In this document: positions 13,984 through 30,103 of the stretch, piece by piece
Layout of the letters: every line of letters starts with the position of its first letter
How positions within the stretch are numbered: position 1 is the first letter of the stretch
Source: Candidatus Xiphinematobacter sp. Idaho Grape
Lineage (GTDB): Bacteria > Verrucomicrobiota > Verrucomicrobiia > Chthoniobacterales > Xiphinematobacteraceae
Assembly (NCBI RefSeq): GCF_001318295.1
Contig: NZ_CP012665.1
Coordinates: forward strand, 496,001 to 560,000
Direction of reading: 5' to 3'
DNA: 64,000 nucleotides
Position numbers and translations under genes: made by a program
The notes under the pieces: generated by a model
Databases searched by the model: none
The model's input: only the letters and a program-made list of their open reading frames with translations
Told to the model about the DNA's origin: nothing

Positions 13984-14367
13984 GGCAGTAGGGGGGGGTA
14001 AGACGGCGAAGGAGGAACGGCTGGAGGTAGGGTTGTGATTTTCCCATCAATCTACCTGCCAGTTCTGCCTGATTAGGACTCCGCTCCTGGAAGGTTCCAT
14101 TAATTTTCCAAAATATTTAACACCAACTAGGGATAATAGTTTTGGTTTCTTTTGTTGCGTCCAATGTTCAGCCTTAACGGATAGAGCAGAGGAAGTCATC
14201 ATTCCCTGAGGGAATCCTGAGAGGAATAAATAAGAGAACAGATGCTAGCCAAATTGAATGGAGTCCTAGGACCAAACCCCCTTTGGACCTAACCACATCC
14301 CGTAGCAGACTAGGTATTTCAGTTGGAAACAAAACACCCGAGGAAGGGGTAGTAAGTAGACAGGAAA
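13984..14367. other. 384-bp gap upstream of tRNA-Gly (3' side)
   Basis: No gene is visible. There is a G8 run near 13990, a small palindrome ATTCCC-TGA-GGGAAT at 14201-14215, and AT-rich stretches around 14100-14150. No tRNA, terminator with T tract or recognisable coding remnant was seen. Confidence 0.4.
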
Positions 14368-14438
14368 AGCGGGTGAAGGGAATCGAACCCTCACTTGAGG
14401 CTTGGGAAGCCACCGTTCTACCATTGAACCACACCCGC
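14368..14438 (-). tRNA. tRNA-Gly (anticodon CCC)
   Basis: On the minus strand GCGGGTG pairs with CACCCGC (acceptor). The D arm is GTTC/GAAC, the anticodon loop TTCCCAA gives CCC, and the T loop is TTCGATT. The sequence resembles enteric GlyU-type tRNAs. The anticodon stem GTGGC/GCCTC contains one U.U mismatch (positions 28 and 42). No CCA is encoded; the discriminator is U. Confidence 0.93.
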
Positions 14439-14517
14439 AGTGTAAAGACCTTGCCTACCACAGCCTTACGAAGGGACTCAATACAAAAAACATACCTGGC
14501 TAAGCAAGGCTAAAGCC

Positions 14518-14601
14518 ATGCGCGGTCGCTCAAAGTATGGGTCGAAACGTCCAAAACCTGGAACTGAGAAAGAAGCGCATGGGAGGATGAAAAAAAACTA
14601 G
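14518..14601 (+). pseudogene. Displaced copy of the rpsL 3' end, chimeric with the PUR-alpha gene
   Basis: Bases 14521-14576 are identical over 56 bp to 27341-27396, the codons for the C-terminal tail of ribosomal protein S12. Immediately after, bases 14572-14587 match 16 bp of the PUR-alpha gene at 14843-14858. The junction falls in a shared ACTGAG/GAAGC microhomology. The piece carries its own ATG (14518) and TAG (14599-14601), so a 27-residue frame beginning [15 protein letters not shown] exists. It lacks all functional parts of S12 and I infer a recombination scar, although a translated micro-ORF is not excluded. An A7/T7 inverted repeat flanks its end. Confidence 0.85.
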
Positions 14602-14710
14602 ACTTTTTTTAAAGCAAAAAGTTGACTTTGAAACGAGTTTAGGTGTAGCGTTGCGCTCGTGGATGTTTCCACCAGGCCGGGGGTTTCGCTAGGAAACAAC
14701 TGTGTGGGAT

Positions 14711-14956
14711 ATGAGTGGAATGGCGCTGACGGTGGCTATAATGGATAACATTCTTGAGTCGAGGGAGCTACAGGTTGAGAGGAAGCACTTCTTTATTGAG
14801 TTTCGAGAGAACGATCGGGGGCGTTTTCTGAAGATCACTGAGGAAGCGCATGGGAGGAGGAACTCTGTCATTATTCCGAGTACTGGTCTAGAGGAATTTG
14901 GCCAACATCTGAGACAGCTTCTTTCCAATTTCCTATTGCCGGCTGAAAAAAATTGA
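14711..14956 (+). CDS. PUR-alpha family (DUF3276-like) nucleic-acid-binding protein
   Basis: 81 residues from ATG 14711; GTG 14702, ATG 14720 and ATG 14741 are alternatives. The core ERKHFFIEFRENDRGRFLKI, then ITEEAHGRR and IIPSTGLEEF, matches the bacterial PUR repeat: a beta-sheet platform plus helix that binds single-stranded DNA or RNA and dimerises. Bacterial members occur in Bacteroidetes, spirochaetes (Borrelia BpuR) and Verrucomicrobia. Its role is probably RNA/DNA binding with regulatory effect; the target is unknown. TTGACT at 14622 could be a -35 box. Sixteen bases of this gene recur in the rpsL-tail fragment 255 bp upstream. Confidence 0.75.
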   Translation: MSGMALTVAIMDNILESRELQVERKHFFIEFRENDRGRFLKITEEAHGRRNSVIIPSTGLEEFGQHLRQLLSNFLLPAEKN

Positions 14957-27007: not shown

Positions 27008-27418
27008 ATGCCAACAACTAACCAGCTCGTCCGTAGTGGGCGAAGCAGAGTCACTGTAAAGTCAAAATCGCCAGCGCTTGCCAAGTGCCCTCAGCGCCGT
27101 GGCGTTTGCGTCCAGGTGATGACGCGGACGCCGAAAAAACCGAATTCCGCGCTACGAAAGGTGGCCAAAGTACGTTTGACCAATAGTCAGGAAGTAATTG
27201 CTTACATCCCTGGTGAGGGGCATAATTTGCAGGAGCACTCAATTGTATTGATACGTGGGGGCCGTGTGAAAGACCTTCCAGGAGTACGTTATCACATTGT
27301 GCGGGGCACGCTGGATAGTCTCGGGGTGGACGGCCGCCGCCGCGGTCGCTCAAAGTATGGGTCGAAACGTCCAAAACCTGGAACTGAGAAAGAAGCTCAG
27401 GGGAGCAAGAAAAGGTAG
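27008..27418 (+). CDS. rpsL: 30S ribosomal protein S12
   Basis: 136 residues from ATG 27008 ([11 protein letters not shown]); an 18-codon in-frame upstream extension is rejected. The decoding-centre loops [19 protein letters not shown] and [12 protein letters not shown] are intact. The C-terminal tail [12 protein letters not shown] is the segment duplicated at 14521-14576. First gene of the str-S10-spc-alpha array, 8 bp before rpsG. No Shine-Dalgarno tract. Confidence 0.97.
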
Positions 27419-27949: not shown

Positions 27950-30103
27950 ATGGCCCACCTTAATTCACCGCCGGCTCGTGCATTTCCGTTAGAGCACACG
28001 CGCAACATTGGGATTGCTGCGCATATTGATGCTGGAAAAACCACCCTTACTGAGCGCATTCTCTTTTATACTGGCATGATTCACAAGCTTGGTGAGGTTC
28101 ACGAAGGAACTACAGTCACCGATTGGATGGAGCAGGAACGTGAACGAGGTATCACTATTACCTCCGCAGCTACTACCTGTACATGGGATCAGCATAAGGA
28201 GGAAGGAGTCTGTAAATTGTTTGAGGGACAAAAGCAGCGGATTAACATTATCGATACTCCTGGTCATGTCGACTTTACGGCAGAAGTAGAACGTTCCTTG
28301 CGTGTCTTGGACGGGGCCGTTGCCGTCTTTTGTGGAGTTGCTGGAGTGCAACCGCAGTCTGAGACTGTTTGGAGACAGGCTACGAAATATGGTGTTCCCA
28401 GAGTTGCCTTTATCAATAAAATGGACCGCACAGGGGCCGATTTCGACATGGCCGTGCGCAGCATGCGTACCAAACTGAATGCGAATGCATGGCCAGTCCT
28501 GATCCCGCTAGGGAACGAGAGCAACCTGCGTGGCCAACTTGATGTAGTCAATAAAAAAGCTGTCCTCTACCTGGAGGATAATAGTCTGGGTTCTACATAT
28601 GAGATCGTTGAGGTTCCGGAGGAGTGGAGAGAAACTTCTGAAAGAGCGTATCGTGACCTCTTCGAACAAATGGTGGACTTGGACGACGAGCTCGGCATGC
28701 TCTTTCTGGAAGAAAGAGCCATTTCTGTACGAGATCTAAAAGCTGCTGTCCGTCGTCAGACTATTGCGAATCGCTTTGTACCCGTGGTAGGGGGATCTGC
28801 CTTCAAGAATAAAGGGGTTCAGTGCTTAATTGATGCAATTGTAGATTACCTCCCGAGTCCATTAGACGTCCCCCCCGTGCGAGGCCAAGATCCAGACAGT
28901 GGTTCTGTTATGCTAGCAACAGCAGATGACAGTAGCCGTTTTTGCTCGCTAGCCTTCAAACTCTGGGCTGACCCTTTTGTAGGAAAGCTAGTCTTTTTCC
29001 GGGTTTACTCTGGGAAGCTGAGCAAGGGTGATGTTGTGTACAACCCAAGAACCAACAAGCGGGAGCGTATTAGTCGTCTCATTCAAATTCAGGCAGACAA
29101 ACGCGAAGATATAGATACCTGCTGTTCTGGGGATATTGCTGCTATCGTTGGTATCAGAAATATTACTACTGGTGATACACTTTGTGACGAGAATTGTCCT
29201 ATTTTGCTTGAGCCGCCATCTTTTCCTGATCCAGTAATCTCTATGGCTATTGAGCCAAAGACTAGGCAGGATCAGGAAAAGATGGCAGTTGCCCTACAGC
29301 GTCTTTCAGAAGAAGATCCAACCTTTCGTGTCTGTACCAACACAGAAACAGGCCAAACAATTATTGAGGGGATGGGGGAGCTACATCTTGAAATCATTCG
29401 AGATCGGATGCTACGAGAGTTTAAGGTAGGTGCCAATGCGGGTAGACCTCAAATTGCCTATAAGGAAAGCGTTTCCAAGTCAGCCAGTGGGGAAGGTCGG
29501 CTCGTCAAGCAATCCGGCGGTCGCGGCCAATATGGGCATGTCATTATTAGGGTGTGCCCCAACGACCGCGGTAAGGGTATTACAATTGAAAATAAGGTAG
29601 TAGGTGGAACTATCCCAAAAGATTTTATCCCAGCAGTTATCAAAGGCCTCCACGAAGGTCTGCTCAATGGGGTTCTGGGAGGATATCCAGTCATTGACGT
29701 ACACATTGATATTGTAGACGGTTCCTATCATGAGGTAGATTCCAGCGAGGTTGCATTCAAGATGGCTGCTATTTTTGCAGTTAAGGACGGCCTTAAAAAG
29801 GCAACCCCAGTTCTACTCGAGCCCATCATGAAGGTGGAAAATATAACTCCGGAAGAGTTTCAAGGAGACATTATGGGTGATCTCAATCGCCGCCGCGCGC
29901 GCATCGTGGGTATCGATGGGAAGGGCACTGTCTGCATCATCAATGCAGAAGTACCCTTGGCGGAAATGTTTGGGTATGCCACTGCAATCCGTTCACTCTC
30001 GAAAGGTCGATCATCCTACTCTATGCAGCCGTCGCACTTTGAACAAGTGCCGCAACAAACGCTCGGCGTGGTACTAGAGCAGAAAATTAATGGAAAGGAC
30101 TGA
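27950..30103 (+). CDS. fusA: Elongation factor G
   Basis: 717 residues with complete EF-G architecture. GTPase domain: G1 [12 protein letters not shown], switch [12 protein letters not shown]3 DTPGHVDF, G4 NKMDR. Domain IV carries [12 protein letters not shown] catalyses translocation and, with RRF, ribosome recycling. Its TGA stop overlaps the rpsJ ATG by one base; the tuf gene that usually sits between them is absent. A loop longer than in E. coli lies near residue 75. Confidence 0.97.

Follow-up and report, generated by a model that had tools for sequence, protein, structure and literature searches.

A recent copy of the rpsL 3' end beside the remnant of a lost RNase R gene in the reduced genome of Candidatus Xiphinematobacter sp. 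Idaho Grape

How a shrinking genome comes to carry a second, perfect piece of a ribosomal protein gene in one of its spacers is the question raised by a locus of Candidatus Xiphinematobacter sp. Idaho Grape, a bacterial symbiont of a plant-parasitic nematode whose genome is undergoing reduction. The genome (G000) is a single contig of 915,884 bp, and the stretch analysed, called the window here, covers its positions 496001-560000 (64 kb); coordinates given without a contig label are those of the window. An earlier note had described an exact copy of the rpsL 3' end, joined to a piece shared with a PUR-alpha gene and read as a small open reading frame (ORF), and had proposed either template switching or an emerging micro-ORF. 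In this study, the locus was compared with the rest of the genome and with three relatives from the genus, namely G002, a sister genome that is complete at 917,278 bp, and the larger G001 and G003. We observed that the feature is a real, rare and recent mutational scar, with no second example in the sequence examined, and that the mutation, though ordinary in kind, struck an informative place.

The copy and its donor lie 12.8 kb apart on the same chromosome, and in the comparison of the window sequence with itself they agree at all 56 positions and can be extended on neither side (Table 1). A match of this length cannot be chance. The source of the insert is still present elsewhere in the genome, at 56/56 bp in rpsL, as is looked for in a templated insertion. 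A further exact identity of 16 bp (GAAGCGCATGGGAGGA) links the end of the copy with positions 14843-14858 inside the PUR-alpha-type gene (PUR gene below). Both identities were borne out as first described, and the 27-residue basic ORF likewise reads as it had been reported.

Table 1. Features of the insertion locus and of its donors, in window coordinates
Feature	Position	Strand	Remarks
tRNA-Gly (CCC)	14368..14438	-	bounds the eroded spacer on its left; synteny kept in G002 and G003
Inverted-repeat left arm, 8 bp	14516..14523	+	CCATGCGC; other arm 14575-14582
Incidental 27-codon ORF (most likely)	14518..14601	+	ATG supplied by the left flank and TAG by the right; no relative, no family
Exact 56-bp copy of rpsL 3' end	14521..14576	+	donor 27341-27396
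16 bp identical to the PUR gene	14572..14587	+	matches 14843-14858, probable second template; join via GAAGC common to both donors
Inverted-repeat right arm, 8 bp	14575..14582	+	GCGCATGG; other arm 14516-14523
Remnant of lost RNase R, last ~10 codons	14602..14632	+	FLKQKVDFE at 14606-14632; ends of intact relatives VDFFKQQVDFKPL / VDFLKQQVDFKLL
TTGACT, probable PUR -35 box	14622..14627	+	within the RNase R remnant; putative promoter role
PUR-alpha-type nucleic-acid-binding protein gene	14741..14956	+	PF04845; probable donor of 14843-14858
Donor, rpsL 3' end	27341..27396	+	uS12, ORF to 27418

What the earlier note missed is the site, as the insertion falls at the grave of an RNase R gene. In G003, an intact RNase R gene of 744 aa (TIGR02063, 645 bits) separates tRNA-Gly (CCC) from the PUR gene, and in G001 an RNase R gene lies directly 5' of PUR; the order RNase R (rnr), PUR and pyruvate phosphate dikinase (ppdK) was also noticed in the Chthoniobacterales loci L019, L023 and L024. 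No RNase R or RNB domain was detected anywhere in G000 or G002, both of them reduced genomes. About 30 bp at this syntenic position correspond to the last RNase R codons; they are 93% identical over 28 bp to the 3' end of the intact gene in G001 and can be aligned across all four genomes, which identifies them as the remnant of the gene. The copy sits at the edge of this remnant, in the 162-bp spacer (14439-14600) that separates it from the tRNA. In G001 and G003, TTGACT-N16-TATAAA is found within and after the terminal RNase R codons and appears to make a good PUR promoter; G000 and G002 retain the TTGACT with a weaker second box, TGTAGC. To judge from these boxes, the remnant may have survived as a promoter element for PUR. 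The scar sits where RNase R was lost and where the last codons were probably spared for a promoter role.

The copy is young. It is absent from all three genus relatives (0/3), so that the comparison with related genomes called for in the earlier note gave no counterpart in G001, G002 or G003. G002 has the corresponding spacer, bounded by tRNA-Gly and the remnant, but without the copy, and the part of that spacer to the left of the insert is too diverged to display the exact empty site; for the left flank no homolog was detected in the relatives, and the pre-insertion site was not seen there. The rpsL genes of G000 and G002 disagree at 54 of 137 third positions and, within the 56-bp tract that was copied, at 13 bases. 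The copy itself shows 0/56 mismatches to its own rpsL, against about 21 expected of a neutral copy as old as the split. The 95% upper limit on its age is about 14-15% of the G000-G002 split. These figures support the description of the event as recent. Selection or conversion, which had been suggested as alternative reasons for the perfect identity, is not needed, because the youth of the copy suffices to explain it; gene conversion is possible, as RecA is present. The scar also provides a datable marker for distinguishing Xiphinematobacter strains.

Since the Idaho Grape sequence (CP012665) is a short-read assembly made with Velvet and GapFiller from a sample holding two strains, with scaffolds that contained N gaps (PMC4607532), it could be asked whether gap filling or strain mixing placed rpsL sequence in the spacer. 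However, reads of 301 bases at a depth of roughly 1,000-fold cover a 56-bp repeat from end to end a great many times, and the authors remapped the reads and checked coverage and pairing (PMC4607532). Such an artefact, which we consider quite unlikely, would not be expected to create a junction with a third template or to coincide with the border of a genuine deletion remnant.

Whether the scar was built from one template or two is a closer matter. The resemblance to rpsL runs past 14576, giving an ungapped alignment of 73 bp at 94.5% identity, so that a PUR contribution is not strictly required. A single duplication of a 73-bp rpsL end followed by four substitutions is nearly as simple a fit; the likeness to PUR would then be owed to chance substitutions or to the native flank. 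This reading is helped by the facts that rpsL and PUR already agree at 13 of the 16 bases of the tract, that GAAAA from 14589 again agrees with rpsL, and that the native flank of G002 carries GATGAA at the same place. Against it, all four mismatches (4/4) fall within the last 17 bp (P = 0.002 versus random scatter), and three of these substitutions give exactly the PUR bases, yielding a 16-bp match 270 bp away. In simulations, mutated or shuffled tails produced a 16-bp match within 500 bp in 0/20,000 trials and anywhere in the window at about 3e-4, probabilities that concern a match spotted post hoc. We regard the single duplication as rather doubtful.

The three-part order of flank, rpsL, PUR and flank is instead favoured, and by our own estimate it is reasonably likely, because the mismatches cluster in the tail, the PUR match is improbable by chance and the bases past 14587 (GATGAA...AGACTTTTTTT) resemble the native G002 flank. 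The PUR piece is probable rather than certain, since the native right flank may start anywhere in 14577-14587. The junctions differ in what they display: the two donors share 5 bp (GAAGC) at the rpsL-PUR junction, the right junction has about 2 bp of microhomology with the flank, and no clear microhomology was found at the left junction (flank AAGCCATG against rpsL GCCGCC). Two 8-bp inverted-repeat arms straddle both ends of the rpsL copy, and they form the sole inverted repeat in 14439-14700 whose arms reach 8 bp at a spacing within 120 bp. By our estimate, chance would supply about half a pair of this kind in a stretch of such size, and it is the position alone that is suggestive.

Taken with the site and the age, these observations are probably best explained by a one-off microhomology-assisted template switch, or templated insertion, into unconstrained DNA. 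The ancestral order would have been tRNA-Gly, RNase R, PUR gene and pyruvate phosphate dikinase, and RNase R would have been deleted, save for its 3' end, before Idaho Grape and G002 split. The 3' end was probably spared for the -35 box of the PUR promoter, and the deletion would have left a spacer of less than 200 bp free of constraint. Once the two lineages had parted, a 3' end that had broken or stalled within the spacer of the Idaho Grape line may have copied about 56 bp of rpsL from 12.8 kb off, probably switched via the common GAAGC and copied 11 more bases from the PUR gene 270 bp off, after which the native flank would have been rejoined near GATGAA. The earlier note's proposal of template switching assisted by microhomology, in a genome under reduction, is retained as the best reading, with the PUR piece reduced to a probable one given the range in which the right flank may start.

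No match to Ku was found in G000, G002 or G003, so that classical bacterial end joining is not available and a Ku-independent route, itself deduced from its product, is indicated. Template switching during replication or repair with microhomology, and alternative end joining with templated filler, both fit, and the two cannot be told apart from a single product. We infer the class of mechanism (replicative or end-joining), the PUR step and the lack of function. The likeness to FoSTeS, MMBIR and alternative end joining lies in short copies from distant places on the same chromosome, probably from more than one template serially, made without Ku; here, by contrast, one junction shows clear microhomology (the 5-bp GAAGC) and the left one shows none. 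Literature searches on bacterial templated insertions gave mostly eukaryotic work, and the scar helps to judge which repair route operates without Ku. As in the spacer remnants of the Buchnera type (PMC3164680), a lost gene, here RNase R, leaves a decaying spacer of which a probable promoter part is kept, but in the present case the spacer also gained DNA from a working gene and did not merely shrink.

On function, the scar is probably without any. The proposal of an emerging micro-ORF that mimics the S12 tail, a basic 27-residue product that would be made and useful, has in its favour an open frame with ATG and TAG and a 4-nt SD-like AAGG, derived from the flank, eight bases 5' of the ATG. 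Against this, no relative of the ORF turned up in the genomes searched, leaving it without the conservation looked for in a functional small protein, and there was no Pfam or NCBIfam match; no promoter-like site was detected in 14300-14800, and the copy is too young for its sequence to reveal selection. The proposal found no support, and we hold a nascent gene to be very improbable. An equally slim chance is given to the fuller version, in which a three-part switch sited at the palindrome would have made a translated S12-tail micro-peptide, just 5' of the PUR promoter, out of the junk of a deleted gene, a gene at birth. Least probable of all is that the copy acts as a regulatory decoy or as an RNA element taken from the rpsL-rpsG junction: its source is the gene end just before rpsG, and the region folds slightly better than shuffles (z = -1.8), but the copy halts short of the rpsL stop codon and of that junction, which is only a few bases long, and Rfam gave no match in the region apart from the tRNA. 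On this fold score and the Rfam result, an RNA element was rejected.

The scar also appears to stand alone. The 56-bp pair is the sole exact repeat, direct or inverted, longer than 18 bp in the window; in the self-comparison proposed earlier, which was run on 264 kb around the window (29% of the genome), it is the sole exact repeat of at least 22 bp. Many dispersed copies would, according to the earlier note, have pointed to a repeat family, yet DNA-level and protein-level searches placed the rpsL tail at just two places genome-wide, the donor and the copy, and such a family was rejected. A plasmid origin was rejected for want of a match. The locus preserves a clean and young trace, apparently a solitary one, of how copying errors can add scraps to a symbiont genome under reduction.

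When 54 kb of the window were searched against the whole genome for further scars, only tRNA-gene matches, a self-palindrome in fusA and a few short hits no better than noise were obtained. The fusA quasi-palindrome (29215-29286; 72 bp with 18-bp perfect arms) was rejected as a second recent template switch because it is conserved in G002, where its counterpart is 80% self-complementary over 72 bp. The G002 spacer was searched for a scrap of its own and none was found; elsewhere in that genome, a perfect 115-bp tandem duplication (C1:328336-328565; L120:8336-8565) is the sole exact repeat of at least 22 bp in the 200 kb examined. Paralogy was noticed as well in G000, where two segments about 3.1 kb apart in C1:576780-581279 (L114/L115) are 65% alike over 443 bp and 79% over 57 bp, and where C1:464807-465652 and 643480-644322 (L112/L118) form a paralogous pair that is 69% alike over 854 bp.
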